Assembly (NCBI GenBank): GCA_039638595.1
Contig: JBDIWM010000001.1
Coordinates: 62,001-126,000 of the forward strand
DNA from: Atribacterota bacterium
GTDB taxonomy: Bacteria; Atribacterota; Atribacteria; Atribacterales; Caldatribacteriaceae
Direction: 5' to 3'
Length of the DNA: 64,000 nucleotides
Notes under the pieces: model-generated
The model's input: only the letters and a program-made list of their open reading frames with translations
The model's database searches: none
What the model was told of the DNA's origin: nothing
Shown: positions 8,649-61,636 of the stretch, piece after piece
Layout of the letters: every line of letters starts with the position of its first letter
How positions within the stretch are numbered: position 1 is the stretch's first letter
Program-made: the position numbers and the translations under genes

Positions 8649-8654
8649 GGTTTA

Positions 8655-9818
8655 TTACCCCCTCTCTTCTCTGAAATTCTCACCTCGCACCACCATCAAG
8701 AGCACCACCACCAGTATAAGAACCAGTAAAAAGATGGAACGAAGATTCAAAAAATCGATCCATACTCCCATCAACCAGGGAAAAAAGAGAGCCCCTATCC
8801 CCCCAAAAGCAACGGTAAAACCAATAGCCGTCGCCTGGAGATGTCCAACTTTACCGGCCACGTTGGCCACAATAAAGGGCCATATCGCCGAGTACCCCAG
8901 ACCCACGCCACCCAGAGCGAGGAGTACTAAATTCACCTGACTGGTACTGTTAAGGAGTACAAGGAATACCAGGCTAATACCCACCGCTAAACGTAATAGT
9001 CGCGGAGGAGGGAAAAAACGCGCAAGCTGTGCAAAGAGGAACCTGCCCACAGTTATGCTGCCCCAGAAAATAGCCATGGCAATTCCCCCAACATAGATGC
9101 TTGCGTTAAGTTCCCGCACCATATACGTACTCATCCAGGCAGAAGACCCAATTTCTGCTCCCACATATAAGAATATAGCCAAGAAACTGGAAAGAAGCAA
9201 ACTCCGAAAATTCAGAAGGCTCAACCAGTCCTTTTTCTCTTTCTCTACCTTAGGTACCACCAAAAATGTTCGCTCAATCGCGAAAAGAACCAGAAGCAAA
9301 AAAGAAATCAAAGCAGAAATAAAATAGAGTACCCTCCAGGAAACACCCTGACCCAGGAAAAAACCCATTAAAAATGGTCCGCTTGCTGCCCCCAGTCCAA
9401 AAGAAATCTGACTTACGTTCAACGCATACCCCTCTTCCCCTGTAAAAACTCTGGAAACAAGACCAGTAAGGGGAGCTTCACAGAATCCTCCTCCAAAACC
9501 CAAAAGGAGCATCCCCCATTTGATGGTGGAAAAACGATCCGCAAGACTCACGGTGGAAAATCCGATGAGGAGAAAAAGCTGGCTCAAAACCAAAATCCAT
9601 TTCGTCCCCACCAGGTCCGCAAGGATCCCACTACTGAAAGTAACAAGAACATAAGAGAAATAATAAAGAGAAAAAAGCTGCCCCCCTTCGGATGACGAAA
9701 TCTGAAAGCGATTCAACCATTCAGGAAGCACAGCTCCGGTGAGAACCATCGAGAGAGCCAAAAAATAAAAGGCAACGGTAACCAAAAAATAGAGTTTTTG
9801 CCGTACCTTCTTCTCCAT
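8655..9818 (-). CDS. Major facilitator superfamily transporter
   Basis: A 387-residue integral membrane protein with about 12 hydrophobic helices, beginning KLYFLVTVAFYFLALSMVL. The GILADLVGTKW segment after helix 2 is the MFS A-type loop motif (G-x-x-x-D-x-x-G). The length and pattern fit the sugar/FucP-like or general MFS group. Because it lies between the fused E1 gene and a sugar kinase in a polyol operon, the most likely cargo is a sugar or sugar alcohol brought in by ion symport, with phosphorylation inside the cell. Cargo is inference only. Confidence 0.85.
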   Translation of the reverse strand: MEKKVRQKLYFLVTVAFYFLALSMVLTGAVLPEWLNRFQISSSEGGQLFSLYYFSYVLVTFSSGILADLVGTKWILVLSQLFLLIGFSTVSLADRFSTIKWGMLLLGFGGGFCEAPLTGLVSRVFTGEEGYALNVSQISFGLGAASGPFLMGFFLGQGVSWRVLYFISALISFLLLVLFAIERTFLVVPKVEKEKKDWLSLLNFRSLLLSSFLAIFLYVGAEIGSSAWMSTYMVRELNASIYVGGIAMAIFWGSITVGRFLFAQLARFFPPPRLLRLAVGISLVFLVLLNSTSQVNLVLLALGGVGLGYSAIWPFIVANVAGKVGHLQATAIGFTVAFGGIGALFFPWLMGVWIDFLNLRSIFLLVLILVVVLLMVVRGENFREERG

Positions 9819-9837
9819 AGCCTAAGCTCCTTTTTGG

Positions 9838-9871
9838 CCCTGCAGGATCCAAAAAGTCCATACAGGGCCAT
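9838..9871 (-). repeat. Intercistronic inverted repeat between E1 and MFS genes
   Basis: On the minus strand GGCCCTG at one end pairs with CAGGGCC at the other, with a further GGA/TCC pair inside. The hairpin lies in the only sizeable gap (60 bases) inside the operon. It is not followed by a T-run, so mRNA stabilisation or partial attenuation is more likely than full termination. Confidence 0.5.
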
Positions 9872-9878
9872 TACGGTA

Positions 9879-13114: not shown

Positions 13115-14056
13115 TTATCCTCCAACTTCAGGCTGTTTCATAAAAGCCAGCACCTCTCCCAGAGTCCCCACACCTTCAGTAGCACCCATCTTCTGGACAC
13201 ACATCGCCCCACAAGCGTTGGCAAACCGACCCACCTCGTAAAGGTCCCATCCTTTCAAGTATCCGGTGAGAAAGCCCGCCGCAAAAGCATCACCTGCACC
13301 AGTGCCATCCACTACTTTCACCCGAAAGGGAGGAACAACAATTTTTTCTTCATCAGTCATAATAAAACTTCCTTCTGCACCCATTTTGATCGCCACAATT
13401 TTGATTCCCCAATCAAGGAAAAACTGTGCTATTTCGACAAGGCTCGTTTTACCAGAGATCCGGGATGATTCGTCCCGATTAGAGATGAAAATGTCGATAT
13501 GCGGTAAAACCGGTTTAATCGTAGCCAACCACTTTCCAGTATCATCCCAGGCTGTATCTAAAGACGTTATCACTCCCAGACCCTTTGCCCGCCGAAAAAG
13601 GAGCGCAGTCTCTTCTCCATCAAAACCAGGCATCAGAAAGCTCCCAGCTACATGGACGATTTGAACATCTGCCAAGAACTCATCCCGTACATCCTGCGCT
13701 CGCAGGCAAGAATTCGTCCCGGGGTAGTGGAGAAAAGTTCGTTCCCCAGCCGTGTCAAGAATGACCATGGTCGCCGAAGTATGGTACACTTCATCCAGAG
13801 CTACCCCCCGAGCGTCCACTCCATGCCGTTCCAGAGAACGGATGACCACCTCACCCAGGTCATCTTTTCCAACCTTTCCTACTACCGTAACCTCTTCCCC
13901 CAGCTTCCGCAACACCACTCCAGTGTTGTGGGCACATCCACCAACATGGAGTTCCATTTCCGGAACGAGCATTAACTTTCCCTTCTCCGGTAAACGATCA
14001 ATGGGCCGGCCAATGAGGTCTGCAACCAGAATTCCCACACAGGTTATCCGTGCCAT
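13115..14056 (-). CDS. PfkB-family (ribokinase-like) carbohydrate kinase
   Basis: A 313-residue kinase with the N-terminal PfkB-type GGCAHNTGVVLRKLG motif and the C-terminal signature VVDGTGAGDAFAAGF, where the second Asp is the catalytic base. It would phosphorylate a sugar or polyol using ATP. It is the first enzyme gene after the SorC regulator (3-base gap) and precedes mtlD, so it may supply the phosphorylated polyol for MtlD. That coupling is inference from order. Confidence 0.88.
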   Translation of the reverse strand: MARITCVGILVADLIGRPIDRLPEKGKLMLVPEMELHVGGCAHNTGVVLRKLGEEVTVVGKVGKDDLGEVVIRSLERHGVDARGVALDEVYHTSATMVILDTAGERTFLHYPGTNSCLRAQDVRDEFLADVQIVHVAGSFLMPGFDGEETALLFRRAKGLGVITSLDTAWDDTGKWLATIKPVLPHIDIFISNRDESSRISGKTSLVEIAQFFLDWGIKIVAIKMGAEGSFIMTDEEKIVVPPFRVKVVDGTGAGDAFAAGFLTGYLKGWDLYEVGRFANACGAMCVQKMGATEGVGTLGEVLAFMKQPEVGG

Positions 14057-46405: not shown

Positions 46406-47401
46406 TTACTTATTCCCCTTTACTGCCCTGAAGAAACTACGGTATTCAAAAAGGATGGAAAAGACTTTAGGATCAAAACGCTTCCTTTCCTTTTCCATTA
46501 TGGCATATGCTTCATCCAGGGAATAAGCAGGACGATAATGACGTGCAGATGTCAAAGCATTAAACACATCTGCTACCGCCACAATCCGAGCCGAAAGCGG
46601 AATCTCTTCGCCTCGCAGACCATAGGGATATCCCGAACCATCAAAGCGTTCATGATGATAGAGGGCTACTTCGTAACAGGTCTTGAGTATTTCATTTTCG
46701 GGATGGCGCATGATAGCTTCTTTCAGGATATCTGCTCCATAGAACGTATGATTTTCGACCAACTTCCGTTCCTCAGGAGTATAAGGACCAGGTTTACGAA
46801 GAAGGTCGGTGGAGATAATAATTTTCCCGATGTCATGGAAAGCGGAAGCGATTCGGAGTCGTTCCGCAAATCGAAGATCCTCCACTTCGTAACGCTCACT
46901 ATAAGCACGAGCAAGGATGAAGGAGAGAATACGAATATCGCGAACATGTTTCCCAGTATGGCCATCTTGCATTTCAATGATTTTTAAGGGTAGTTCAAGT
47001 ACCACATCAAGTGTTGACCAGGTAAGTTTACGAAGCCCAGAGCGGAGATAGGCAAAGAGTTTTTTTGCCGATACCGGTTTTTCCAGAAAATCATCGGCAC
47101 CACATTCTAAAGCACGGATGACGGCTTCTTCTTCACCATGACCAGAAAGGACGATAATATATGGATAAACATAGGAAAGCCGGTTACGTAACGCCGTAAT
47201 CATTTCAAAACCATCCATTTCCGGCATACTGAGATCGGTGATGATAATTCGATAGGCATGAGGATGCCCCTCAAATATTTCCAGCGCTTCCTTTCCATTT
47301 CCGGCGCTTTGCACTTCGTATCCCCATGTTTCAAGGTATTTTGCAATGACCTCTATGATAACCGGTTCGTCATCCACAAGAAGAACTTTAAAATCGCTCA
47401 C
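46406..47401 (-). CDS. Response regulator with HD-GYP domain (probable cyclic di-GMP phosphodiesterase)
   Basis: A 331-residue protein. The N-terminal receiver domain has the acidic pair near residues 10-11, the phospho-acceptor Asp about 56 in TDLSMPEMDG and the Lys in FLEKPVSAKK. The C-terminal HD-GYP domain has FHDIGK, the ENHTFYGADIL segment, YHHERFDGSGYPYGL (the GYP motif) and VADVFNALTSARHYRPA. It would hydrolyse cyclic di-GMP when phosphorylated. It is the last gene of the chemosensory operon, 10 bases after a CheX-like gene, and is the only recognisable output enzyme. Confidence 0.92.
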   Translation of the reverse strand: MSDFKVLLVDDEPVIIEVIAKYLETWGYEVQSAGNGKEALEIFEGHPHAYRIIITDLSMPEMDGFEMITALRNRLSYVYPYIIVLSGHGEEEAVIRALECGADDFLEKPVSAKKLFAYLRSGLRKLTWSTLDVVLELPLKIIEMQDGHTGKHVRDIRILSFILARAYSERYEVEDLRFAERLRIASAFHDIGKIIISTDLLRKPGPYTPEERKLVENHTFYGADILKEAIMRHPENEILKTCYEVALYHHERFDGSGYPYGLRGEEIPLSARIVAVADVFNALTSARHYRPAYSLDEAYAIMEKERKRFDPKVFSILFEYRSFFRAVKGNK

Positions 47402-47411
47402 GGTGAACCCC

Positions 47412-47852
47412 TTACGAAACGCTCAGACCAGCCAAAAGCAACCCTCCTCCGATAAACAAAGAAACTTTTTCTGCTGGCATGGTATTCAGTATTCCCCGCA
47501 CTACCCCACCCATCACCCCGGTGGGGGGAGTAGCTACCATCATCACATTGAGACGAGTCAAAAACGAGCCACATATCATGGTAGCGAGTTCTGAAAGGGC
47601 GCTTAAACCCATTTCAGAAGAAAGCCCACTAACATCGCCAATCATGATGCCAAGGAGAAACGAAGCCGCTTTTTCATCGAACTCCAGGCTCATAATTCCC
47701 TTCCGTTCTCCATTACATTCCAGAAGACCGGTGATGACACAGAGGACACCTGTTACCAGGTGCATATCTTCTTTAATAATTTTAAACTCGCCCAACTCAA
47801 GACCAAATGCCGAGAGTACTTCCTGAAGCGCACTGCCCAGTTCGGTAATCAT
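47412..47852 (-). CDS. CheX/CheC-like protein with altered active site
   Basis: A 146-residue protein with the CheC/CheX alpha-beta fold pattern, such as GIMSLEFDEKAASFLLGIMIG. The catalytic helix reads LSELATMICGSFLTRLN: the Glu of the E-x2-N motif is there, but Thr replaces the Asn. So it may bind CheY-P or its neighbour without fast phosphatase activity. It overlaps the next CheX-like gene by 4 bases. Confidence 0.75.
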   Translation of the reverse strand: MITELGSALQEVLSAFGLELGEFKIIKEDMHLVTGVLCVITGLLECNGERKGIMSLEFDEKAASFLLGIMIGDVSGLSSEMGLSALSELATMICGSFLTRLNVMMVATPPTGVMGGVVRGILNTMPAEKVSLFIGGGLLLAGLSVS

Positions 47853-48331
47853 GCGTTTTCCTCCAGCAAAATATTCATCTCCACATGGCCATGAGGAGTT
47901 TCAAAAACAACATGCGAGCCCCTCATGCCAAAGTTGAAGAATACCAGTCGTTCTCCCCAGAACGAACTTGGTGGCGCAGGTCGTACATTTTTGCCTGGGA
48001 AACGATTATTCACTCTGGTAAGGGCGTGACCAGCAACTAAGTTTCCAAACTCACTCACTGCCAGGATTTGTTCCTCCCAGGACGATGATGGATGACCACT
48101 CATGGTTCCATACAGCATGTTGAGAAAGGATTCTGGAACACCCAACCAGAATCTCCCTGAAAACCCTCCCGAAAAACCGACCACAGCCACAACACCATCA
48201 AACTGAATTTGGGAAATTTCCACTTCTCTTTTCGAAATCTCGCGAATACCTACACCGAGAAGCTGTACACAAACTTCTTGCGTTGCTTCAATAAAGTCCT
48301 GTACAATTTCGTAGATTTCTGCCTCGCTCAT
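47849..48331 (-). CDS. cheX: CheX-like CheY-P phosphatase
   Basis: A 160-residue CheX/CheC family protein. The catalytic helix is VSEFGNLVAGHALTRVNN, with the E-x2-N pair needed for dephosphorylating CheY-P. The C-terminal strand pattern (VFFNFGMRGSHVVFETPHG) also fits. It lies 4 bases after a CheY gene and is coupled to the degenerate copy that follows, which suggests the two work as a pair. It would turn off the signal. Confidence 0.82.
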   Translation of the reverse strand: MSEAEIYEIVQDFIEATQEVCVQLLGVGIREISKREVEISQIQFDGVVAVVGFSGGFSGRFWLGVPESFLNMLYGTMSGHPSSSWEEQILAVSEFGNLVAGHALTRVNNRFPGKNVRPAPPSSFWGERLVFFNFGMRGSHVVFETPHGHVEMNILLEENA

Positions 48332-48335
48332 ATCG

Positions 48336-48695
48336 CTACCCCCTCGCTAAATCCTCCAAAACCTCAAGGAGCCTTTGAGCAGTAAATGGCTTTTGAAGAG
48401 ACACATGAATTCCCATGTTCATGGCTTTCTTCAAGAGATTCTCGTCTCCCATGGCGCTGAGAAGTAAAATTTTTGCTTCGGGGTTTAGCATCAAGATTTC
48501 CTCCGCTGCTTGTAGGCCATCTTTGACAGGCATGGTGACATCGAGCGTTACAATATCGGGGTTGAGTTCCCGATAGAGTGCTACCGCTTCCTCTCCGTTT
48601 TTAGCTTCTCCAATCACCTCAAATTTTGAACCCATACAGGCCTTTTTGACCATATTTCTGACAAGGGGTGAATCGTCCACTACCAGGACCCGCAT
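48336..48695 (-). CDS. cheY: CheY-like single-domain response regulator
   Basis: A 119-residue receiver domain with VVDDSP, the phospho-acceptor Asp52 in TLDVTMPVKDG, the conserved Ser in LLLSAMG and Lys102 in SLQKPF. There is no output domain. It lies between cheB (6-base gap) and cheX (4-base gap). It would carry the phosphate from CheA to a partner or serve as a phosphate sink; no flagellar motor is visible as target. Confidence 0.92.
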   Translation of the reverse strand: MRVLVVDDSPLVRNMVKKACMGSKFEVIGEAKNGEEAVALYRELNPDIVTLDVTMPVKDGLQAAEEILMLNPEAKILLLSAMGDENLLKKAMNMGIHVSLQKPFTAQRLLEVLEDLARG

Positions 48696-48701
48696 ATCGC
48701 G

Positions 48702-49766
48702 TCACCTCGTTCCCACCTTTTTCACAATCTCTCTATAAATTTGGTACGACGGAAGAACCACATCCGTCCCACCTCTTACGATGGCTTCTTGGGGCATACC
48801 AAAAACGATCGCCGTTTCTTCAGATTCAGCGATGGTATACCCTCCACTCTGGCGTATTCTCACCATGGCTTCAGCACCATCGTCCCCCATACCTGTCATG
48901 AGCACCCCTACCATTCGTTCACCAAAAACTTCCAGTACCGACATCATCATCACATCCACCGAAGGCATGAACATATGTTTGGGAATGGTGGAAAGGAGAA
49001 TCAGAATTTCTTCTCCTTTACGTCCTACTTTGAGGTGATATCCCCCTTTCCCCACGTATACCACTCCTGGCTCCACCAACATACCATTTTCTGCTTCCAC
49101 CACTCTAAGAGCACAGTAAGTATTGAGCCTCTCCGCATAAGATTTCGTAAAAGCAGGAGGCATGTGCTGGACGAGAAACACCGCCGCGTTCAACTCGGCT
49201 GGAAGGAATGGTAATACATCATAAATGGTTTTTGGCCCTCCAGTGGATATCCCAATGGCCACGGCTGAGAAGGAAAGGAACGGTTGCCGGTGACGGAACA
49301 CCTTTTTTTCAACGGGAGAAACCGCTTTTCGCTGAGCAAGTCTTTGCAGAATGCGTTTCTTTCGGGAAGCTTTACAGGCAGCGCGCAACTTTTCCAGGAG
49401 TTCTTCCTGCACCAGATAAACATTAGTCGAAACCGTTCCACCAGGTTTGGCCACACAATCAAACGCCCCAAGCTCCAGTGCTTCAAAAGTCGTTACGGAA
49501 CCATCCTGGGTAAGAGAAGAGACCACCACCACAGGAGCGATGGCTTCCTCTACGATAATCTGGAGGGCTGTCAAGCCATCCATTTTAGGCATATTGACAT
49601 CCATGGTGATAACATCTGGGTGCAATGTCCGGGCCTTTTCCACCGCATCTTCTCCATCTCGGGCAACATCGATCACTTCAAAATCTGGTGACGCTGCAAT
49701 GATCCTAGTTAACACCTTACGCATCAAGGCTGAATCATCGACTACCAGTACTCGCCACTTTTCCAA
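48702..49766 (-). CDS. cheB: Chemotaxis protein-glutamate methylesterase
   Basis: A 354-residue CheB. The receiver domain (1-120) has Asp56 in TMDVNMPKMDG. A linker leads to the methylesterase domain, with the catalytic Ser in IGISTGGPKT, His in VQHMPPAFTKSYAERL and Asp in MTGMGDDGAEAM. It removes methyl groups or deamidates glutamines on receptors after phosphorylation by CheA. It lies 5 bases after the triple CheW gene. Confidence 0.95.
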   Translation of the reverse strand: MEKWRVLVVDDSALMRKVLTRIIAASPDFEVIDVARDGEDAVEKARTLHPDVITMDVNMPKMDGLTALQIIVEEAIAPVVVVSSLTQDGSVTTFEALELGAFDCVAKPGGTVSTNVYLVQEELLEKLRAACKASRKKRILQRLAQRKAVSPVEKKVFRHRQPFLSFSAVAIGISTGGPKTIYDVLPFLPAELNAAVFLVQHMPPAFTKSYAERLNTYCALRVVEAENGMLVEPGVVYVGKGGYHLKVGRKGEEILILLSTIPKHMFMPSVDVMMMSVLEVFGERMVGVLMTGMGDDGAEAMVRIRQSGGYTIAESEETAIVFGMPQEAIVRGGTDVVLPSYQIYREIVKKVGTR

Positions 49767-49771
49767 GATAC

Positions 49772-51277
49772 TTACTCTCCTTCCTGAAACCTTTTCAGCG
49801 CTTTTTTCGGTACCCTTTTTTGAGGTTCCTCTTTGGTTTCCCCCTCCAGGATTTTCGCCATCGTTTCAATTTCCCTCTCACTAAAAATCCGATTAAGGTC
49901 AAGGATAAGGATGATTTCCTCTTCCAGACGAGCGACGTTTTTGATAAACCTTCCCGACTCACCCGATAACACGACTTCGGGCACGGTGGATATAGCGCTC
50001 TGCGGGATTTTTTCCACACCCTCCACTGCATCAACAATCAAACCGGTCTTTTTCTCCTCGATTTCGGCCACGATAATTCGGGTGGATTCGTCCCGCTTAC
50101 CCTGGATAAGACCAAAGTGCCTGCGCAAATCCACAATCGGGGTCACTTCACCCCGAAGATTCATCACTCCTTCCAGAAATTCTGGAGCTCGGGGAACTCT
50201 GGTAATGGTAGCAATGCGGTTGATTTCTCGTACCTCCTCAATATCAACACCATACCGTTCTTCCGCCACCCGGAAAATGATGTACTGCGTTTCTACCTCT
50301 CGACCTATGGTTTTCGCTTCCCGACTCCGTTCTCCTCCCTCCTGAGACAACCCCGCAACTTCTTCTGAAAGCAAGGCGTCACTGCGTAGAATCATTATGG
50401 TCTGTTCCTCTTTGCGCACGATACCGGCAATTCCTTTTTTGCCAGCCTGTTCAAACAGGGAAGGTGGCTTCTGAATCTCACTTTTGCGTACCCGCAAAAC
50501 TTCATGAATGCGGTCAACGATGAGTCCAAATTGCCTCCCGCGCAATCGGAGGACAATGACCTTGGTAAACTCATCCGTGCTTGCCGCAGGAAGAGCGAGC
50601 ATGGTACGCAGATCAACGATGGGAAGGACGGTGCTCCGGAGATGAATCACTCCTTTGACATGGGGTGGTACATCCGGTACTTCAGTTGGCCTAGCGTAAC
50701 GAATGATTTCTTGAACATCTTGAATGGGAAATGCATATTCTTCGCCAGCCAGTGCAAAGCTTACAATTTGCACATATTCCTCCACCCGTTTTTCATCGAA
50801 TTTCTTGTCAACAGTTCGAGCTTCTCCAGAACGAGCGTCAAAATGCGCTTCCGAAACACCCATGGTAAAGAGTTTTTCTATCTCTAAGATCATCTGCAGT
50901 GTTTCGCCGGTACGAATAACCCTGCGCACCAGTTCGCTCGCCGTTGAAGCTTCCTCTATCCGGTCTTCCGTAATCTGAATCACCTGCGCTGTACGATCCA
51001 CGACTACTCCCAGCGTTCTCCCCTTCCAATCAAGGACAACCACCTTAGAAGTCTCGAGGTCCTCTTCCTCAAAACCCATTCTTTGCCGAATACTCATCAC
51101 TGGGAGGATTTCCCCCCGAAGATTGGCAACCCCCCGCACATATGCCGGTGTCAGTGGAACCCTGGTCACTTTGGGAACCCGAACGATTTCCCGCACATAT
51201 TCAACTGGTACAGCATACATTTCCCCGGCAATGGCAAAGGTGACATACTTCGCTTCAGCTGTAGCAAGCATGCTCAC
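49772..51277 (-). CDS. cheW: Triple CheW-domain adaptor protein
   Basis: At 501 residues this is three CheW domains in one chain (about 8-150, 168-305 and 328-475). Each has the receptor-binding pattern: [15 protein letters not shown] then [26 protein letters not shown] then [29 protein letters not shown] then [16 protein letters not shown] usual CheW has about 160 residues. It would couple receptors to CheA and could bridge several receptors or both ends of the double-tipped receptor. It overlaps that receptor gene by 4 bases (ATGA). Confidence 0.93.
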
Positions 51278-53241
51278 ACCTCCGCTTCATGTTGGAGTTC
51301 ATCAGCAATGGCAGCAATTTCCTCAATCGCCTTGGCCAGCTCCTCCACCCCTTTTGCCTGTTCCCGAGCACCCTTGGCTGCTTCTTCAATAGCTGAAGCC
51401 GACTCGACAGCAGAAGAATTGATCTGTTCGATGGCCTTACCGGTCTCTTCAATCGCGGAAGCAATCTGTTCCAGCTCCTTTGCCACGGTATCGAACCGGG
51501 AGGTTAGGTCGAGCATCGCTTTTCTGACGCTCTCGAGAAGCTTGGTCGTTTCCCGAGCTTTTCCTACTTCACCGGCAGCAACTTTAGCTGAATCAGCGAT
51601 ATCGCTCGCAACAAGCTGAACCTGGTACTGAATATTGGTTACCAGGTCTTTGATCTGTTCGGCATTGCTCCCCGATTCGTTGGCCAGGGTCCGGATATCG
51701 TTGGCCACCACTGCGAAACCTTTGCCATACTCCCCAGCTCGGGCTGCTTCAATAAATCCATTGACCGCAAGCATATTGGTCTGTATGGTAACCTTATCGA
51801 TGGTATCCACCGTTTTCCCAATACGTCGAGCACGCTCAGAAAGAGCTTCCACATTACCGGATGCTTTTGTATAGGACTCCGATGCAAAGGAGATCCCCTC
51901 AATCATCTTCTCCACACTCACTCGATTCTGGGCTATTTTCTCCGAGAGTTGTTGCAAAAGATTTAAATCACCTTCAACTACCATCCGCAGATCCTCTACC
52001 TTCTTGGCCAGAACTTCCACAATCTGCCTGGAACGTTCGGTGGATTCAGAGAGAATGTGGGCACCCTTTTCCAGCTGCTGCAAAGCAGTACCAATCTCTT
52101 GCGCACTACTTGAAAGTTCCTCAATGTTCGAAGAGAGCTCCTCTGCTGCGGAAGCCAGAGTTTCCGAAGACTTTTCGGTATCGGTAGAGGTTTTCAATTC
52201 TTCGGCAAGTTCGACCAGTTCCTGCGCTGCAGTACTCGTTTGCGCAAAGGCTTTACTCTGTTCCTCAACCGCCTTTGAGGATTGCGCTGCAGCCGAACTC
52301 ATCTCTTCCGAGCCACTGGCCACCTGCTCGGAAGATTCCAGAAGTTCCTGGGCGGCATCGGCGCATTCATTCATATCCCGTAAAATCCTCTCCATGTGGA
52401 CATTCATTTCCACAAAACGCTGAACAATGTCTTCAAGTTGTTCAGTCACTTCACGTCCCAGCTCCACCTGAGAACGAGAATCCTCCACAATCTTTTGAAT
52501 ATCCTGTACCGTTTGCACCACAGCTTGCTTGATGTCTCCCACAATACCAGTAATCTCCCGGGCTGAACGTTCGGATATCTCCGCCAATCCCCGGACTTCG
52601 TCAGCAACCACCGCAAAACCGCTACCGTGTTCTCCTGCTCTGGCCGCCTCAATGGCAGCGTTGAGCGCCAAAAGATTGGTTTGATCGGCAATCATGACCA
52701 CCGTTTTGACGATTTCCTCAATCCGATTTGATTGTTCCTCGAGCTTGCGAATGAGCGCAGCCGATTCCTCGTTTTTCGTAGCCGATTCTTCAATAGCCCC
52801 GATGAGACCTTGAATACTCTCGTTCATCAATCCCAGTGTATTCTGAGCATCTCTGCCGCTTCGAACCATGTCCTGAGCCATGTTCTGGATGTTTTCAGCA
52901 CTTGCCCGAATCTGGTTCACCGCCGCTCGCGACTCATCCGCAGCGCTGGAAGCCTGCTCAGCCCCAGCCGCGATCTGCTCCATAGCCTTGGCCAATTCTT
53001 CCACCGCAGATGACGCCTCTTCCACTCCAGCGAGTAACTCCTCAGCCGCACTGGAAATACGCTCAGCCATGGCTTGACGTTTAGCCAAGGTTCTCGCCCG
53101 AGCCCTCTCCTGAGCTCGTTGTCGTGCTTCGTCTCTTTTGACTTGAAGCTCTTCTTCCTCTACCGAGCGAATACCTGTCCGAGTCTGAACACTCTTTGCC
53201 CCTCCCTTTGTTTCCGGAACCGCCAGCTTTTTCTGAACCAT
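51274..53241 (-). CDS. Soluble chemoreceptor with two complete signalling hairpins
   Basis: A 655-residue methyl-accepting protein with no membrane segment and no recognisable sensor domain. It has two hairpin tips: [20 protein letters not shown] at about 187-206 and [20 protein letters not shown] at about 487-506, exactly 300 residues apart. Each is flanked by matching helical arms. The N-terminal 60 residues are basic and coiled. The layout resembles the double-signalling-domain receptor DosM of Vibrio cholerae, which holds together cytoplasmic arrays. It follows the Hsp70-like gene by 27 bases and is coupled to the triple CheW gene. Confidence 0.93.
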
Positions 53242-53268
53242 CCCATATCCTCCTTTCAGGAACTGACG

Positions 53269-54750
53269 CTAAAGAACTTCCAAACCTATACCCCGCCTCT
53301 CTAAAGCCGTTCTTTCCTCCGTCACTTCAAGTACCCCTCCATGAATTGTTAACGTCTCTGCTTTACCAGTATCTGTGTCTTCCGCCACCACCTCCAGCAC
53401 TCCGTTATCGTTCACGATAAAACTAATCGCCAGCCTTGCTTCGCCCTTCTTCCATCTCCGGGGAGAATGAAAATGAAAATAACCCAATCGCAATAACCTC
53501 TCCCCTCGTTCTTGGAGCACGGCCACCGTTACCTGATTCTGCTCGTCCTGGGTATTGGTAAACATTCTGGTCGCCACCGCCGGATAAACCGTACCTCGCT
53601 CGATTACCGGCACAAAACATCCATCATCATCCAGAACACCCAGGGAATGAGGAAGGATATCCCGAAACTCCACATGGTTTAGGCGTCCTTCCAGTATTCC
53701 CGCACACACCGCTGCACCCAGAGCTACAACTTCATCGGGATTTACCTCTCCTCGTAGTACCGCTTGAGGAAACATGGATCGCACGGTTTCACGAAAAAAC
53801 GGCATCCGGGACGAACCGCCACTCAAGATCACCACATCGATATCCTGAGGAAGGACCCCCGTATCCCTCAACGTCACTTTAATGAGTTCAAAAGCCCGCT
53901 CAAAAAGATAAGCGGTCAATCGCTCAAATTGCTGGCGGGAAACGGCAAGATGCACATGTACTGGCCCATCCTCAGTCAAAGCAAGATAGGGAATAATAAC
54001 GCTGGCCTCAGTGATACTGGAGAGATCCATCTTCACCCTCTCGGCATGAATCCATAGCTGGTGCATGGCGATGGGATCGCGTTCCAGGTCCACGCCACGT
54101 TCCTCAAAAACCGTCTCAGCAACCCAGTGTACCAGCACGGCGTCAAAATCGGCACCCCCAAGTTCGGTACTCCCACCCGTTCCCATGACTTCAAATAGCC
54201 CCTCCCGGCAGTTCATCAAGGTGATATCGAAGGTTCCTCCTCCAAAATCAAGCACCAGAATACGTTTATCTCCTTTTTCATGGATTCCGTACGCCAGAGC
54301 ACCGGCAGTTGGTTCGTTCAACAGTTTCACCACCTCGATACCTCCCAGGGATGCGGCCCACAAAACACCCTGCCTCTGGTTATCATCAAAATAGGCAGGA
54401 ACAGTCACCACGGCTTGTCGAACCTGCTCCCCCAAGAAATTTGAAGCGTACTGTCGCAACTTCTGAAAGATAAGCCCTCCGATTTCTGAGGGTGTGTATT
54501 GCCTTCCAAAAATAATGTAATGATGGCTGGTGCCCATTTTTCTCTTCACTCGCAGGATAGTCTGTTCAGGCCGGGCCAGAGCATGGGATTTGGCTAGTTC
54601 ACCCACCAGAACCTGCTTCTCATTTTTAAAGTACACTACCGAAGGAGTAAGCCGAGCACCCCGTTCATTAATGATGATTTCTGGTCTCAAAGTCTTATCG
54701 ACATAAGCGACCAGAGAATTGGTCGTGCCAAAATCAATGCCCACAATCAT
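53269..54750 (-). CDS. Hsp70/DnaK-like protein without C-terminal lid
   Basis: A 493-residue Hsp70 relative. The nucleotide-binding domain has VGIDFGTTNSLVAYVD, KLLNEPTAGALAYG, LVLDFGGGTFDITL and ILSGGSSRMPFFRETV. The substrate-binding beta domain follows (NTQDEQNQVTVAVLQERGERL). The chain ends about 110 residues earlier than DnaK, so the helical lid is missing, and no DnaJ or GrpE gene is near. It overlaps the TPR-like gene by 4 bases and precedes the soluble receptor. A role in folding or assembling the signalling array is inferred. Confidence 0.9.
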   Translation of the reverse strand: MIVGIDFGTTNSLVAYVDKTLRPEIIINERGARLTPSVVYFKNEKQVLVGELAKSHALARPEQTILRVKRKMGTSHHYIIFGRQYTPSEIGGLIFQKLRQYASNFLGEQVRQAVVTVPAYFDDNQRQGVLWAASLGGIEVVKLLNEPTAGALAYGIHEKGDKRILVLDFGGGTFDITLMNCREGLFEVMGTGGSTELGGADFDAVLVHWVAETVFEERGVDLERDPIAMHQLWIHAERVKMDLSSITEASVIIPYLALTEDGPVHVHLAVSRQQFERLTAYLFERAFELIKVTLRDTGVLPQDIDVVILSGGSSRMPFFRETVRSMFPQAVLRGEVNPDEVVALGAAVCAGILEGRLNHVEFRDILPHSLGVLDDDGCFVPVIERGTVYPAVATRMFTNTQDEQNQVTVAVLQERGERLLRLGYFHFHSPRRWKKGEARLAISFIVNDNGVLEVVAEDTDTGKAETLTIHGGVLEVTEERTALERRGIGLEVL

Positions 54751-55055
54751 TGGCCTTTTCCCTCCAAAATGGAGAGATTCTCTCTAACCCTTTCATTATC
54801 GGCGTCTTCCCAAAGTGCTTCCCGCAAAATACCAATTGCTTGACTAACGAAACCATGTTCTGCCAGGATTACGGCAGCGTTGTTCAGCGCCTCGACACGC
54901 AGATGCCCACGTAATTCTGCAACTTTCATATAGAGATGAAAGGCTCCAAAAACATCCCCCTTCCGATCGCATTCTAAAGCCTGGGTAAAAAGTGTCCGCT
55001 CTGAACCTTCAGAAAAAAACACCCGAAGCCCTCTTCCCAGAGGACCACGGTTCAT
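54747..55055 (-). CDS. Small TPR-like helical repeat protein
   Basis: About 102 residues. The segment from 22 on fits two to three TPR-type helical hairpins: ALECDRKGDVFGAFHLYMK, VEALNNAAVILAEHGFVSQA, then ADNERVRENLSILEG. I chose the ATG at 55055, which overlaps the ParA stop as ATGA; the longer frame to 55118 runs inside parA. Its stop also overlaps the Hsp70 start, so ParA, TPR and Hsp70 are made as one coupled set. It may link the ATPase with the chaperone or the array. Confidence 0.72.
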   Translation of the reverse strand: MNRGPLGRGLRVFFSEGSERTLFTQALECDRKGDVFGAFHLYMKVAELRGHLRVEALNNAAVILAEHGFVSQAIGILREALWEDADNERVRENLSILEGKGQ

Positions 55056-55828
55056 TGCCTTTTCATCCTTTCTACCATTTCGGCAACAATCATTCGCATA
55101 TCCTGTGCAGCCCGACAATGGGGAGCATAACGGTGAACTGGCATCGCATGACTGGAAGCTTCCATCACTTTGATATCCTGCCGCAGGGGAGGAAAGATTT
55201 TATCCACCCCAAACGTGCGAGAAAGTTCACTCAAAATCTCCCGACCAAAACGAGTCCTCGTCTCAAAAAACGTCGGCACGATACCCAGAAAACAGATGAG
55301 TGGATTAAGTGTCCCACTCACGCGATAGTAGAGTTCCATCATCTGAGCAAGACCCACCCCAGAGAGAAAATCAATTTTGGTGGGAATAACAAGGTACTGA
55401 GTAGCCACCAGAGCACTCAGGGTGGTAAAGCCCAAAGATGGCGGTGTGTCGATGATCAGATAATCAAAAGAAGCTTCCATTTCGAGGAGGAAATCTCGAA
55501 GAATAAGCTCCCCATCCTGAACACGGCTCAACTCCACATCCAATGCTGCCAGATTCTGATTGGAAGGCGCAACGGTCAGGTTCTCAACCACACAGAAAAG
55601 TTCCGGTTTCCATCGCTTTCCTTCCAGAAAATCAATGAGAGCTTCATAGACGCTATATCGTACACTAAGAGGATTAAGACCAAGATGCACGGTGGCGTGA
55701 GCCTGAGAATCGAGATCGATGAGTAGACACTTTGTGCCCTGATCCCCAAGCAACGCCGCAACATTCACCGCCACTGTGGTTTTTCCAGTTCCGCCCTTAC
55801 GATTGGAGAATGTCACGATTTTTCCCAT
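55052..55828 (-). CDS. parA: ParA/Soj-type ATPase, probable array-positioning protein
   Basis: A 258-residue ParA family ATPase. The deviant Walker A is in FSNRKGGTGKTTVAVNVAA, with the signature lysine. LIDLDSQAHAT is the Walker A' region, and YLIIDTPPSLG is the Walker B. There is no N-terminal HTH and no ParB gene or parS-like site nearby, so a plasmid or chromosome partition role is unlikely. It lies directly after cheA (TGATG) and before TPR and Hsp70. ParA proteins PpfA and ParC do position chemosensory arrays in other bacteria; a like role is inferred here. Confidence 0.88.
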   Translation of the reverse strand: MGKIVTFSNRKGGTGKTTVAVNVAALLGDQGTKCLLIDLDSQAHATVHLGLNPLSVRYSVYEALIDFLEGKRWKPELFCVVENLTVAPSNQNLAALDVELSRVQDGELILRDFLLEMEASFDYLIIDTPPSLGFTTLSALVATQYLVIPTKIDFLSGVGLAQMMELYYRVSGTLNPLICFLGIVPTFFETRTRFGREILSELSRTFGVDKIFPPLRQDIKVMEASSHAMPVHRYAPHCRAAQDMRMIVAEMVERMKRQ

Positions 55829-58244
55829 CACTGCACCACTCTCTGGGGATTCAGGATGACCACCACCGATCCATCTCCCATAATGGTGATGCCAGATACC
55901 AATCCATCTCCCCGCATGTACTCCGGCACCGCTTTCACCAGATACTCTCCTTCTTCCAGGAATTTATCCACCACAATGGCAAAGGTTTCGTCACTACTCC
56001 CTATTACCACAAGCGGCACCAAATCAAAGTCAAAAACCTTGCTTCCAAAAGAAATGGTTCTTTGAAAAAGAATCTCCTCGGCCAATACCAGGGGAAGTAT
56101 CGTACCCCTCACTTCCGCAAAGCGTCCATTAAAATATTCTCGCACCAGTTTCCGCGGAATTTTTACCGTCTCCCGAACAAAATCTAAGGGAAAGATGTAC
56201 CGCTCGCCACCAATACCGACCATAAGACCCCGTATCACCAAAAGAGAAAGAGGGATGCGCATCCGTACCATGGTTCCTCTGCCCGGGACAGAATCGATGT
56301 CCACTCGTCCACCAATGCTTTCCACATTGGTTTTTACTACATCCATCCCCACGCCTCTTCCTGAAAGATCCGAAACAACCCGCGCGGTGCTGAAGCCAGG
56401 AGCGAAAAGGAAGGAAAGCACTTCCTGATCCGACAACCGCAATGCTTGCTCTGAAGACACAAGACCCCGTTCTACCGCTTTTACTCGAACCGCCTGAGTA
56501 TCCACTCCCTTCCATCATCTTCTACCTCCACAAAAGCATACGCTCCCCGATAGTAAGCACGTAAAGCTATTTTCCCTTCCCTGGGCTTACCACAATGTTC
56601 TCGCTCCTCAGGTGTTTCAATACCATGATCGACTGCATTGCGTACCAGGTGTGTCAAAGGATCTGCCAGTTTCTCAATTACCGTACGGTCAAGTTCCGTA
56701 TCACCGCTCTCCACAGCAAGAATGACATTTTTGCCCAGCGATTGGGCAAGATCCCGCACTGTTCTCCGGTAGCGCGCAAAGAGCTCTGCAACTGGAACCA
56801 TGCGCAATGAAAGCACCATAGACTGAAACTCAGCAGTCAACCGTTCCAAACCAGAAGCAATGCCTTTCGCCTCCGAAAGGAAAACCGAAGACTCTTCTGC
56901 GATTTTTCGAATAAAAGTTCGAGTCGCATTTTTAAGGATTAAAAGTTCCCCAACCAGATTCAACATTTTCTCCAGCTTCTCACGGTCCACACGTACAGTA
57001 TGCACAGCATCATGCGATACGCCAGCAGAAGAACACAACACTTGACCTCTCCGTTCTTCGTGAACCTCTCTTTGTGCCTTCATAGTGGCAATGAAATTCA
57101 AAAATTCAGCCTGCAGCCCTTGTAGACACGACACATCGCCCTCACAAGCTTTTTCGGCGATCTCCTCCACGAGAGAAAGGTGGGTTTCTAAACCAAGACG
57201 AACTAAGCCACTTTTCAACGCTTCACCCAATCGCACCACCTGTTCCTTTTCTTCCTGTGAAGGAGAAGCCGGAAAATCCTTCAAAACGTCCAGGAACTGT
57301 TCAGCAATGTTCAGAAAAGCCTCCAAAGTGGCCCTTTTCCCTTCTGAAGGAGGCTTTTCGACTTTCATTCCCAGAAACACCTCAATAGCCCCTCGAGGAA
57401 AACTGGTCACACCGTTGACGATAGCCTGACGAAGATTCTTTACCAGATCAATCCCGGTATAGGTCTCTTTAAACACTGTTTCATTCAGTCCAGCCTGACC
57501 ATCCCGAACTTTTTGAAAGAGGTCTTCCAGGCGGTGTGCAACACGTTCTATAGAGCGGAAAAGTTCAGCCTGAGGACCTTCAGGAAGAAAACCCAAAACG
57601 AGTCGAGCCCCACCTTTGATGCTGTGAAACGCTCGCATCGCGGTGTCAACATGTTCTCCCCGGGAAGGTTCACCCTCCAGAAGAAGCAAAATGTCCTCTG
57701 CACGTGTCAGATTTTCTTCAAGTTCCGCCAAAAAATCTCGGAACACTTCTTTCACAAACACTTCGTCAACGATTGCAATTTTCTCCTGGTCTGCCATTTC
57801 TACCTTGGAAGGAGTTTCTCTTTTTTGACTCAGGATATGGTCAATCTTTGCAACCACACGTTCTTCTTGAAACTGAGCAAAGTCAACCCTCAGCGTTCCT
57901 CCAGAACATGTCGTCAGAGCTTCCCCAAGGTATCCCAAAATCTGCTGGACAAAGTCCTCCACTCCAAGTAAGGCGTCAACCACCTCTTGTACCGGAAACA
58001 CCCTTCCGCTTTTCATCTCTTTTATCAAATCCTCAGCTCTATGACAGCTTGTAACAATTGGGGTGAGGTTTGCAAAACCAGCAATCCCCTTCAGCGAATG
58101 AAACGAACGAAAGAGCGAGTCAAGGAGTTCTACCCCGGCTCCTCTTTCCAGGGCAAGAATCCGTTCTTCCAGATCTGAGAGATAATCCGGTGCTTCTTCA
58201 AGAATTCCACGGAGAATTTCCACTTCTTCTGGCACAAACTGCAT
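55828..58244 (-). CDS. cheA: Chemotaxis histidine kinase CheA, frame broken by a 1-base deletion
   Basis: Two overlapping frames (56481-58244 and 55828 to about 56505) together form one CheA of about 805 residues. It has two HPt domains with His49 (FRSFHSLKG) and His207 (MRAFHSIKG), a dimerisation region, the ATPase N-box LVRNAVDHGIETPEE, the G1 box VEVEDDGR, then GFSTARVVSDLSGRGVGMDVV and a C-terminal CheW-like domain. The break is in a short G-run at about 56507-56509, exactly after DDGR; one added G would restore DDGRGVDTQ. Upstream and downstream parts are intact, so a sequencing error or a very recent mutation is likely. Confidence 0.9.
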
Positions 58245-58250
58245 ATGGGA

Positions 58251-58619
58251 TCAACCCCCAATGGCCATATGCACACTCTCTACGAGAATTCCAGGCTGCG
58301 CAGGCTTCGTCAGGTAGAAATTCGCCCCAGCCCGAAGCCCTTCTTTGCAGTCTCTATCATCATCGAGAGTCGTCACAATGATGATCGGTACCTTTTGAAA
58401 CAGCACCTCCTGTCGTACCCTTCGAATAAAGGTCAGGCCATCCATGTTGGGCATATTCAGATCGGTGATAATACAATCAATATCACCCTCGGCATATAGC
58501 TTCTCCAGACCCTCGGCACCATCAACGGCGTCAATCACCGTAAAGCCAGAGCTTCGCAAGATGTAGGCATGAAAATTCCTGGTCATCTGTGAATCGTCGA
58601 TAATCAGAACCTTTGCCAT
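58251..58619 (-). CDS. cheY: CheY-like response regulator, second copy
   Basis: A 122-residue single receiver domain. It has LIIDDSQMTRNF, Asp53 in ITDLNMPNMDG, Thr in IVTTLDDD and Lys105 in YLTKPAQPG. It differs clearly from the CheY at 48336-48695, so the two may serve different partners. It overlaps cheR by 16 bases and precedes cheA by 6 bases. Confidence 0.92.
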   Translation of the reverse strand: MAKVLIIDDSQMTRNFHAYILRSSGFTVIDAVDGAEGLEKLYAEGDIDCIITDLNMPNMDGLTFIRRVRQEVLFQKVPIIIVTTLDDDRDCKEGLRAGANFYLTKPAQPGILVESVHMAIGG

Positions 58620-59455
58620 TCCTGATTCAACTCCTGTAAGGGTTTACGGTACACCAGACTCTCTCCCATTCGGCGTAGTTCAAAGGCACTGGTGATACGG
58701 CTCATCGACTCGGAGTGCCCCAAGAAAATATATCCTCCGGGATTCATCATGGCATAAAAAGCCTCCACCACCTTTTTTCGGGAATCATCGGAAAAATAAA
58801 TGAGGACATTGCGACAGAAAACAAAATCAAAACTCCGTCCTAAGGCAAACAGTTCCTCACGGTTACTGAGATTGACCTTGTGAAAGGTCACAAAATCCCG
58901 CACGTTATTCTTGACCATAAAGCCTTCCCCTGTCCTGATAAAGTACTTCTCCAAATATACCCGAGGAACATCTCGCACCGCCCGTTCATCATAAATCCCT
59001 CTCCGTGCACTTTCTAGAGCACGATAATCAATGTCCAGCGCATCAATAGAAAAAGTACAGGGTGGTTCAAGCATCTCCTGACAAATGATGGAAATGGTGT
59101 ACGGTTCTTCCCCTGTGGAACAACCGGCGGATAGAATCCGAACGTGTCGCGAGGTTTTCCCTCCCACTACTTCCGGCAGGCAAAATTCGGCAAATGCCTG
59201 CAACTGGGGAAATTCTCGAAAAAAATAGGTTTCATTCACCGTGATGGTACACACCAGTTCTTCGAACTCTCTTCCCGAACCGTCATAACGCTTCAAATAA
59301 TTGAGATACTCATTGACCGAAGAAAGCCCCAGAGTAGCAAGACGCTGTTCAATCCTCCGTTTGAGAAGGTAAATTTTCTGATCACCAATATAAACACCCG
59401 TCCGGGCATAGACGTAGTCACGTAACTGACAAAAGTCCCGAAATCCAAAAATCAT
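58604..59455 (-). CDS. cheR: Chemotaxis protein-glutamate methyltransferase
   Basis: A 283-residue CheR. It has the N-terminal helical domain (RDYVYARTGVYIGDQKIYLLKRRI in part) and the SAM-binding motif LSAGCSTGEEPYTISI, DIDYRALESARRGIY, and FDFVFCRNVLIYFSDDSR. It adds methyl groups to receptor glutamates with SAM. The start ATG at 59455 overlaps the HEAT-protein stop (ATGA); an upstream extension to 59497 lies within that gene. Confidence 0.94.
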   Translation of the reverse strand: MIFGFRDFCQLRDYVYARTGVYIGDQKIYLLKRRIEQRLATLGLSSVNEYLNYLKRYDGSGREFEELVCTITVNETYFFREFPQLQAFAEFCLPEVVGGKTSRHVRILSAGCSTGEEPYTISIICQEMLEPPCTFSIDALDIDYRALESARRGIYDERAVRDVPRVYLEKYFIRTGEGFMVKNNVRDFVTFHKVNLSNREELFALGRSFDFVFCRNVLIYFSDDSRKKVVEAFYAMMNPGGYIFLGHSESMSRITSAFELRRMGESLVYRKPLQELNQEWQRF

Positions 59456-60537
59456 TGTGGCTCGACACCCAATTTCCGAAGGGCATCCAGGGCACATTGT
59501 TTCACATCCTCATCCACTTCCTTTTCAAGAAGTGCTTGCACTTCGGGAATACATTCTTGAAGTCTATATTCCCCAATGACTTCCAAGGCTGCTAGGCGAA
59601 GGAGAGGATCTTCGCTCTCTAAAAACATCCGTACATCCTGCAAACAATTATCCCGATCTCCCTGAACAAGCAAGAAAAGGACCTCATATTTATTCGCAGA
59701 GGGAATATCGGAATCAAGGAGTATTCGAAGGCAACTCCCCATGGCCTTTTGATCACCTTCGCTTAGTGTATCAGTTCTCTGGATGATTCCTCGAATAACA
59801 TCAAGAATTTCTTTATAAAATACCTTACCCCACCTGAAAGCAATATCGAGTACCAGGGAAAGGTACTCCCCACTACCACACCCTGCCAAAAAACGGAGGT
59901 ACGAGGGAATGAGGTATTCCGGTAATGAAGCGGGATCAGGGAAAAGCTCTTGCACCACAGATTTCGTATACTGATTCCCTATTTTTCCCAGAGCCTCGAG
60001 ACAGGCGGAAACCAGGAATGGGTCCTGAGCCCTTGCCAGAACATCAGCAATGCGGTCGGCATAACGATATCCTTGCCGGTCAGCAATATATTCCACGGCG
60101 GCAATCAGGTTATTCACATCGTCATCGTCCAAAGCACTGGCAATAATGTCTGTAACAATAGGGTTATTGAGGGCGTACAGGGCATCAAGGGCAAGCTTTC
60201 TGACATGTTTATCTTCGCTTTTGAGGCTCCTGGCAAGGATCTCCAGAGGAGCCTGCCACTGACTGGCCAGAATATCTACCGCAGCATTGCGCAGAAAGAG
60301 ATCAGGTGAACGGAAAAGGACCGCAATCTTTTCGGGTATGGTACAATCCTGCAGTTTCTTGAGGGCCCTAACCACCGCTTCGCGAATGATATCACGGTGG
60401 TCTTCTTGAAGAATGGCGACCAGCGTATCTACATACTGAATGGCGTTCTGAGCAACAACGGCATCAAGAAAACCCAGAAAGGCCGGTAAGTCTTCGCGGA
60501 GAGGGACACCTTCTCTCTCTCTCTCGAAGGAATTCAC
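59452..60537 (-). CDS. HEAT-repeat protein heading the chemosensory operon
   Basis: A 361-residue protein made of HEAT/PBS-lyase-like helical repeats: REAVVRALKKLQD, LFLRNAAVDILAS, KHVRKLALDALYAL, DPFLVSACLEALGKIG, DPLLRLAALEVIGEY, DVKQCALDALRKLG. No catalytic domain is seen. Start is a GTG at 60537 with GGGAGGG 7 bases upstream. It is the first gene after the operon promoter and is coupled to cheR. Such proteins are scaffolds; it may organise the array or the receptor-modifying enzymes. Role is inference. Confidence 0.85.
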   Translation of the reverse strand: MNSFEREREGVPLREDLPAFLGFLDAVVAQNAIQYVDTLVAILQEDHRDIIREAVVRALKKLQDCTIPEKIAVLFRSPDLFLRNAAVDILASQWQAPLEILARSLKSEDKHVRKLALDALYALNNPIVTDIIASALDDDDVNNLIAAVEYIADRQGYRYADRIADVLARAQDPFLVSACLEALGKIGNQYTKSVVQELFPDPASLPEYLIPSYLRFLAGCGSGEYLSLVLDIAFRWGKVFYKEILDVIRGIIQRTDTLSEGDQKAMGSCLRILLDSDIPSANKYEVLFLLVQGDRDNCLQDVRMFLESEDPLLRLAALEVIGEYRLQECIPEVQALLEKEVDEDVKQCALDALRKLGVEPQ

Positions 60538-60610
60538 TGAAATTCCCTCCCAAAAACCTTACCGTGATTCGGAAAAGTACGATGAAGCAACCCTTACAAA
60601 CCGCGATTAC

Positions 60611-60639
60611 ACAGTACAACACCATTTGGAACATGTCAA
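60611..60639 (-). promoter_or_regulatory. Promoter of the chemosensory operon
   Basis: On the minus strand a consensus TTGACA (60634-60639) and TACTGT (60611-60616) are 17 bases apart, about 75 bases before the first gene. It points away from the HDOD promoter at 60747-60775. Confidence 0.6.
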
Positions 60640-60746: not shown

Positions 60747-60775
60747 GTGACACCGTCACGGAAACAGGATATAAT
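60747..60775 (+). promoter_or_regulatory. Promoter of the HDOD gene, with a dyad over the -35 box
   Basis: GTGACA (60747-60752) and a consensus TATAAT (60770-60775) are 17 bases apart, 18 bases before the ATG. GTGAC-ACC-GTCAC (60747-60759) is a perfect dyad covering the -35 box, a possible repressor site. Confidence 0.65.
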
Positions 60776-60793: not shown

Positions 60794-61636
60794 ATGGGCA
60801 AAGTTTCATTATCGGTTTTGGTTCAGGCAGTTGAAGAATTACCCGTTTTACCGACGATTGTCCAAAGGGTGATACAGCTTACGGAGGACCCAAAATCGAC
60901 CGCAAAAGACATCAACAATGTTTTGAGTCAAGACCAGACTCTCACGGCGAAGGTCTTACGTCTGGCTAACTCTGCTTTTTATGGGTTTCCCCGCCGCATT
61001 TCCACCATCACCGAAGCCACAATCATCCTAGGTTTTCAGACCATTAAAAGCATCGTGATTGCCGCCACTGTAAGTGAGATACTCAAAAAATCGCTTCCGG
61101 GATATGCCCTGGAACAGGGAGAACTGTGGAAGCATTCTCAAACTTCGGCGATCGCCGCACGCATGCTCGCTCGAGAGACCAAGTTTCCTCGTCTGGAAGT
61201 CGCCTATACGGCCGCACTGCTTCACGATATCGGTAAACTCGTCCTGAATACGTACCTGAGTGATACATATCAGGAGGTCCTGGAAAAAGTGGAGGGTGAG
61301 CATCTTACCTTCACACAGGCAGAAGAAGCCGTACTCGGTTTTAACCATGCCCAGGTCGGAGCAAAAATCTGCGAGAAATGGAATTTACCTGCGGAACTCG
61401 TCGAGACCATCGCCTTCCATCATGAACCAGAAAGGGCTACCATAACCCCGAAACTGGTGGCCATTACCCATATTGCCGACTTTATAAGCGTTTCGATCGG
61501 CATAGGAATGGGAATCGATGGATTTTTCTACGGCATATCCCCGGAAGCTGTAACCCTTTTGGGAATCAATGAAACGCTGATTGACCGTCTTTTAGTACAA
61601 CTCACCGATGTTCTGGTTGACCAAGACAGTTTTTGA
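60794..61636 (+). CDS. HDOD-domain protein
   Basis: About 280 residues. It is a single HDOD domain: LPVLPTIVQRVIQLTEDPKS, then DQTLTAKVLRLANSAFYGF, TEATIILGFQTIKSIV, LLHDIGKLVL and AFHHEPERAT. HDOD proteins bind regulators or nucleotides in signalling pathways and rarely act as phosphodiesterases. The ATG at 60794 is preferred (G-rich ribosome site upstream); a longer frame to 60626 crosses the promoter. It is divergent from the chemosensory operon and could be part of the same network. Confidence 0.9.
   Translation: MGKVSLSVLVQAVEELPVLPTIVQRVIQLTEDPKSTAKDINNVLSQDQTLTAKVLRLANSAFYGFPRRISTITEATIILGFQTIKSIVIAATVSEILKKSLPGYALEQGELWKHSQTSAIAARMLARETKFPRLEVAYTAALLHDIGKLVLNTYLSDTYQEVLEKVEGEHLTFTQAEEAVLGFNHAQVGAKICEKWNLPAELVETIAFHHEPERATITPKLVAITHIADFISVSIGIGMGIDGFFYGISPEAVTLLGINETLIDRLLVQLTDVLVDQDSF

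Follow-up and report, generated by a model that had tools for sequence, protein, structure and literature searches.

The window analyzed here, a stretch of 64,000 nucleotides from an Atribacterota bacterium, a heat-loving and largely uncultured member of the family Caldatribacteriaceae (assembly GCA_039638595.1, contig JBDIWM010000001.1, positions 62,001 to 126,000 of the forward strand), contains a chemosensory operon of 14 genes, all on the minus strand, running from 60537 to 46406. Its new element is a block of three genes, encoding a ParA-family ATPase, a small tetratricopeptide repeat (TPR) protein and an Hsp70-like protein, which is inserted into a known chemosensory core. The favored interpretation, to which a probability of about two in three is given, is that the operon encodes a cytoplasmic array with two baseplates, which is partitioned on the nucleoid by ParA via the TPR protein as an adaptor, and for which the Hsp70-like protein is a dedicated assembly factor.

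In the mechanism proposed here, the operon would make an array of the DosM/F9-like kind, in which the double-tip receptor would be a rod with a signaling tip at either end, inserted in two CheA/CheW layers made of the triple CheW protein and CheA, with CheR, CheB and the CheX proteins adapting and resetting the signal. The operon's ParA would partition this array on the nucleoid; the N-terminal LGRGLxxFF peptide of the TPR protein would dock on the ParA dimer, leading to ATP hydrolysis, and either the array or the Hsp70 would be held by the TPR body. A dedicated role in ATP-driven assembly or remodeling is proposed for the lid-less Hsp70; its client would probably be the receptor, whose gene comes next downstream, and its conserved C-terminal tail would serve as the tether. 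In the Caldatribacteriaceae the receiver-HD-GYP protein would break down cyclic di-GMP as the output.

A single scan of genome contigs yielded 37 loci; the counts across phyla draw on contigs that are often incomplete, and the related genomes among them are not independent of one another. In 18 of the 37 loci the Hsp70-like gene is immediately upstream of the receptor gene, and it is preceded by the TPR and ParA genes where the contig extends, except in L132. The records with the block belong to Atribacterota, Thermotogota, Bacillota, Aminicenantes, delta/Thermodesulfobacteriota and Spirochaetota, the names being those of the metagenome-assembled genomes, accepted as given. The receptor has two tips of the methyl-accepting chemotaxis protein (MCP) type, each matching solved MCP hairpins, and the tips are exactly 300 residues apart in every one of the 23 receptors with a match to both, a set that extends from Atribacterota to Pseudomonas, Halomonas and Azospirillum; in the remaining receptors the simple pattern matches the first tip only, with a mostly unchanged distance from tip to C terminus. 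In the AlphaFold2 model two long helices join near the midpoint, and the N terminus is disordered. With straight helices, 300 residues correspond to about 45 nm from tip to tip, as against the reported height of 35 nm for the Vibrio cholerae array, a comparison that does not extend to the spacing in DosM itself. The cytoplasmic array with ParA positioning, as proposed by the first-pass annotation, is well supported by the anatomy.

The Hsp70-like protein, the TPR protein and ParA

The array Hsp70s share with DnaK the nucleotide-binding domain, the beta substrate-binding domain and the conserved catalytic residues of the ATPase, but they differ from it in the absence of the alpha-helical lid (open reading frames (ORFs) of 495-540 residues versus 600+), in the linker, where VLLLD is replaced by a sequence of the V-[ED]-[FL]-x-D type, and in a private C-terminal tail; their scores are under all NCBIfam cut-offs for DnaK. 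The tail pattern R-G-x-x-[LI]-x-[VI]-[LIFV] is found in 13 of 5,590 ORFs, and all 13 are array Hsp70s, the delta-type array Hsp70s being without it. In a tree limited to array Hsp70s, DnaK and viral Hsp70s, all 17 array Hsp70s are on one side of a branch with an SH-like approximate likelihood ratio test (SH-aLRT) value of 100. When the Hsp70 was used as the query, plasmids gave general DnaK only and viral contigs only general DnaK-like proteins.

A literature search for Hsp70 in chemosensory gene clusters gave StkA of Myxococcus, a 540-residue Hsp70-like negative regulator between the pili and the Dif proteins (PMC4319316), as the sole relevant case, and no dedicated chaperone for chemosensory arrays was found in the literature searched. 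It is possible, though distinctly less likely than a role in assembly, that the Hsp70-like protein is an ATP-dependent signaling regulator or scaffold, rather than a folding factor, acting on CheA/CheW or the TPR adaptor in the way that StkA acts upstream of Dif. Such a role would agree with the missing lid, the altered linker and the unusual tail next to conserved ATPase residues, and with the operon having neither DnaJ nor GrpE; the likeness to StkA is, however, one of description, and assembly would be suited equally well by the position before the receptor gene and by the coupling of translation with the TPR gene. Chemosensory arrays are large assemblies with an ordered structure, and if the assembly reading is true, this gene-linked subfamily, found across phyla and having its own tail, would be a candidate dedicated array chaperone.

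The TPR protein begins with MNRGPLGRGLRVFF, and the ParB of the same genome begins with MNKRGLGKGLEALI. In Myxococcus xanthus ParB, residues L11, L15, L18 and I19 are needed for binding to ParA, and R13 is needed for stimulating its ATPase activity (PMC12462528); the L, R, L, F and F of the TPR motif have the same spacing as L11/R13/L15/L18/I19. The pattern L-G-[RKMI]-[GS]-L-x-x-[LFI]-[LFIY] has 14 matches among 3,528 distinct ORFs, namely one chromosomal ParB, 12 array TPR proteins, in which it is located 4-11 residues from the start codon, and one spurious reverse-strand frame. This peptide is retained while the remainder of the TPR protein diverges. The AlphaFold2 model of the TPR protein (mean predicted local distance difference test score of 88) matches TPR structures of the PDB by Foldseek and has the motif as a short helix of low confidence, whereas Pfam gives weak TPR/MIT matches below the cut-off and there is no NCBIfam match. 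The ParB N-domain (PF02195) is not found in the TPR protein, nor is any ParB family domain found in the operon; the sole PF02195 match of the host genome is on contig C39. On the strength of its ParB-type peptide, the TPR protein is likely a ParB analogue, adapting ParA to the array, rather than the general assembly factor of the first-pass annotation. If true, a TPR protein carrying the ParB activator peptide would show how ParA motors get assigned to new cargo.

In ParA, a Y-E signature (F-E in L121), which by inference would correspond to Y81/E82 in the ParB-peptide pocket of M. xanthus, is present in 10 of 10 loci with the LG-x-GL form and absent from the others aligned, L148 having Y-D; the pattern is suggestive only, because it follows phylogeny. 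A plasmid query with this ParA gave general ParA only. An unlikely, but not negligible, alternative is that the partner of ParA is the basic N terminus of the receptor (MA[KR]KLxxP...), as TlpT is for PpfA (PMC3964821), the TPR peptide being secondary or vestigial. This N-terminal motif is conserved and predicted to be disordered, but basic N termini also occur on receptors without a nearby ParA gene. The peptide with the hydrophobic spacing of ParB is on the TPR protein, encoded at the position of a ParB gene, its retention despite divergence elsewhere and the accompanying Y-E signature pointing in the same direction. The TPR adaptor remains the preferred partner of ParA. The Hsp70 tail (RGxGLxVL) also seems to resemble the ParB-like peptide, as with RGTGLEVF and LGRGLEVFF in the relative G009. 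A self-contained partition and assembly machine, in which the TPR protein mimics ParB, the Hsp70 tail competes for the ParA pocket and one ATPase couples receptor chaperoning with movement on the nucleoid, is conceivable but improbable.

Linkage of the block to the receptor across phyla

The annotation also implied that the ParA, Hsp70-like and HEAT genes are conserved next to the che genes in related genomes, and this is what is found: ParA, TPR and Hsp70-like genes stay beside the receptor gene in about six phyla, and the HEAT gene adjoins CheR/CheY/CheA across phyla. The linkage was examined further in 63 Syntrophomonadales genomes with 10 intact loci, two of which had been seen already (L193 = L135, L197 = L142). 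In the eight new loci, the receptor follows in 8/8, the Hsp70 tail is present in 7/8 and the ParB-like motif is upstream in 6/8, whereas the 16 other Hsp70 paralogs of these genomes score 0/16 for the receptor, the tail and the motif. Two fusions to a receiver domain, of the TPR protein (L138, 519-1394) and of the HEAT protein (L133, 551-2068), suggest that the adaptor and the HEAT protein are controlled by phosphorylation. In L132 the usual site of the TPR gene, between ParA and Hsp70, is occupied by a hemerythrin-like ORF (968-1276), which hints at an oxygen input, and Thermodesulfobacterium has ParA and TPR without Hsp70. None of the Proteobacterial loci examined has the block.

Chance insertion of the block is rejected because of the synteny across phyla. 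Although the core exists without the block in gamma- and alpha-proteobacteria, it is very improbable that the ParA and Hsp70 genes joined a standard F9-like operon by hitch-hiking and have no joint function, given the shared order, the 4-base overlaps, the receiver fusions, the Hsp70 and TPR motifs seen nowhere else in the data (the chromosomal ParB and the spurious frame apart) and the contradicting result in the Syntrophomonadales.

Several observations weigh against the ParA-partitioned, Hsp70-assembled array. In most of the Bacillota members, M or I replaces the central basic residue of the TPR motif, and the TPR proteins of Thermodesulfobacterium and of the delta type have a looser L-x-x-L-L only, so that the stimulation of the ATPase may differ in these lineages. 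Two Syntrophomonas-type loci (L136, L146) share the core but lack ParA-TPR-Hsp70 in the interval from CheA to the receptor, and the block is therefore dispensable in some lineages. The conserved basic N terminus of the receptor could, like that of TlpT, contact ParA directly. Finally, one base is missing at a GGG run in the G box of the ATP-binding region of CheA, near 56,500; the gene is thereby divided into the ORFs 56481-58244 and 55828-56505, which overlap at 56481-56505, and this copy of CheA may be broken. A sequencing or assembly slip is likelier than a true mutation; the CheA of G009 (L037) is a single ORF of 810 residues.

Operon layout, host genome and output

The 14 close-packed minus-strand genes of the first-pass annotation are all found, in the order of Table 1; the junctions measure -46 to +27 bases, with 4-base overlaps at CheA/ParA, ParA/TPR and TPR/Hsp70. 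Pfam supports HEAT, CheR, both CheY proteins, CheA, ParA, HSP70, the MCP signal domain, three CheW domains, CheB, both CheX proteins and the receiver-HD_5 protein. From its altered phosphatase motif, CheX2 is perhaps an inactive partner of CheX1. Of the consensus promoter claimed earlier, the -35 element TTGACA at 60639 stands, but the -10 element is weak and the promoter scan does not list this promoter. Divergent from the operon is a gene for an HDOD-domain protein (60794-61636), with a promoter-like GTGACA-17-TATAAT just 5' of it (60747-60775).

Table 1. Features of the chemosensory operon in the window, in the order of transcription
Feature	Position	Strand	Support
HEAT-repeat protein, 361 residues, gene 1	59452..60537	-	Pfam HEAT_2 3.3e-22; 61% in G009
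CheR methyltransferase	58604..59497	-	Pfam CheR 1.4e-52
CheY-type single receiver domain	58251..58619	-	Pfam Response_reg 6.5e-27
CheA: two Hpt, dimer, ATPase and CheW domains; split by frameshift	55828..58244	-	Intact, 810 residues, in L037
ParA-family ATPase, deviant Walker A KGGTGKTT	55052..55831	-	Pfam AAA_31 3.6e-42
Small TPR protein, 102 residues, N-terminal ParB-like peptide PLGRGLRVFF	54747..55055	-	Motif, AlphaFold2 model, TPR matches
Lid-less Hsp70, 493 residues, tail ERRGIGLEVL	53269..54750	-	Pfam HSP70 1.2e-133
Soluble double-tip chemoreceptor, tips at residues 198 and 498, disordered N terminus	51274..53241	-	
Triple CheW protein	49772..51277	-	Pfam CheW, three stretches, 3.8e-108
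CheB methylesterase	48702..49766	-	Pfam CheB 3.1e-58
Second CheY-type receiver	48336..48695	-	
CheX-like 1, E94-F-G-N motif present	47849..48331	-	Pfam CheX 2.5e-9
CheX-like 2, T for N in the E-x-x-N phosphatase motif	47412..47852	-	Pfam CheX 2.4e-8
Receiver + HD-GYP; HDIGK and HHERFDGSGYP intact	46406..47401	-	Response_reg 1.1e-28, HD_5 6.1e-36
Promoter-like TTGACA-N17-TACTGT, 5' of the HEAT gene	60611..60639	-	Weak -10 (3 of 6)

The block is present in 4 of 12 genomes of the family and 4 of 50 of the phylum. In G009, which like G011 is a Candidatus Caldatribacterium, all 14 genes are collinear with 50-82% identity, CheX1 being the lowest and the N-terminal part of CheA having 56%; in G005 and G011 the order is retained as far as the contigs extend, with just 44-60% identity in G011. 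The operon is thus more than a chance arrangement. The annotation had noted no flagellar, pilus or CheD gene. There is indeed no CheD in the operon, but elsewhere in the host genome, on contig C25, there are FliM/N-type genes of the flagellar switch and another CheA. With these and about 18 GGDEF matches in the host genome, the operon is an extra system beside the flagellar one, and the host cell probably uses cyclic di-GMP.

The active-site signature of the receiver-HD-GYP protein is intact, and its breakdown of cyclic di-GMP is probably the output in the Caldatribacteriaceae. The control of cyclic di-GMP proposed in the annotation is weakened as a general feature, since among the loci this protein is confined to that family, so that a lineage-specific output is plausible; unrelated PAS-HD-GYP genes flanking L133 and L126 give mild support for cyclic di-GMP as a recurrent output. 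The G009 gene is interrupted by an in-frame TAG (L037, 14318-14326) at a point where the reading frame of the window continues, which is either an error or decay.

Comparison with known systems

The core resembles, by gene set and double-tip receptor, the F9/DosM class, of which the V. cholerae receptor DosM has a double signaling domain and forms a rod across two CheA/CheW baseplates (PMC7534058). As in this class, the receptor in the window is soluble and has two signaling tips, and the CheA, CheR, CheB, CheW and two CheY proteins of the published gene list of V. cholerae cluster I (PMC11940527) are all present in the operon. The V. cholerae array is purely cytoplasmic and double-layered (PMC7534058, PMC11940527); the system in the window adds ParA-TPR-Hsp70, CheX and HD-GYP, and the descriptions of cluster I (PMC7534058, PMC11940527) mention no ParA, Hsp70, TPR or HEAT. 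The loci of Azospirillum and gamma-proteobacteria have the core order receptor, triple CheW, CheB, HEAT, CheR, CheY, CheA. The cluster on plasmid p2 of Azospirillum argentinense (NZ_CP032323, L112) shares this order and the 300-residue tip spacing, and has CheC, but it is without ParA, TPR and Hsp70. In this locus the receptor (8554-10527) and the HEAT protein (13292-13909) both begin with MALVK, as if binding one partner, and gamma-proteobacterial receptors likewise begin with MALVK or MALIK. Since the core matches these Proteobacterial clusters, the array itself is of a known kind, and the earlier statement that no described system has exactly this set holds for the inserted block but not for the core.

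The closest precedent for the positioning is CheOp3 of Rhodobacter sphaeroides, where a ParA-type ATPase of the che operon, PpfA, places a cytoplasmic array over the nucleoid by partitioning, with TlpT acting in the manner of ParB (PMC3964821, PMC10241942, PMC2829493). In both systems the che operon encodes a ParA ATPase but no full ParB, and there is, by sequence, an array partner with a ParB-like activator peptide, but in CheOp3 this peptide is the N terminus of the receptor TlpT, and in the window it is that of the TPR protein; the descriptions of CheOp3 (PMC3964821, PMC2829493) include neither Hsp70 nor a TPR adaptor. StkA, too, is Hsp70-like and works together with a chemosensory pathway, but it is encoded outside a che operon and acts in exopolysaccharide signaling (PMC4319316). 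With chromosomal ParA/ParB the system shares a small ParA and a partner with an N-terminal L-x-R-x-L-x-x-[LF]-[IF] peptide, which in ParB binds the ParA dimer; it differs in that a TPR body takes the place of the CTPase/DNA-binding body of ParB in the partner, and in that the proposed cargo is a protein array.

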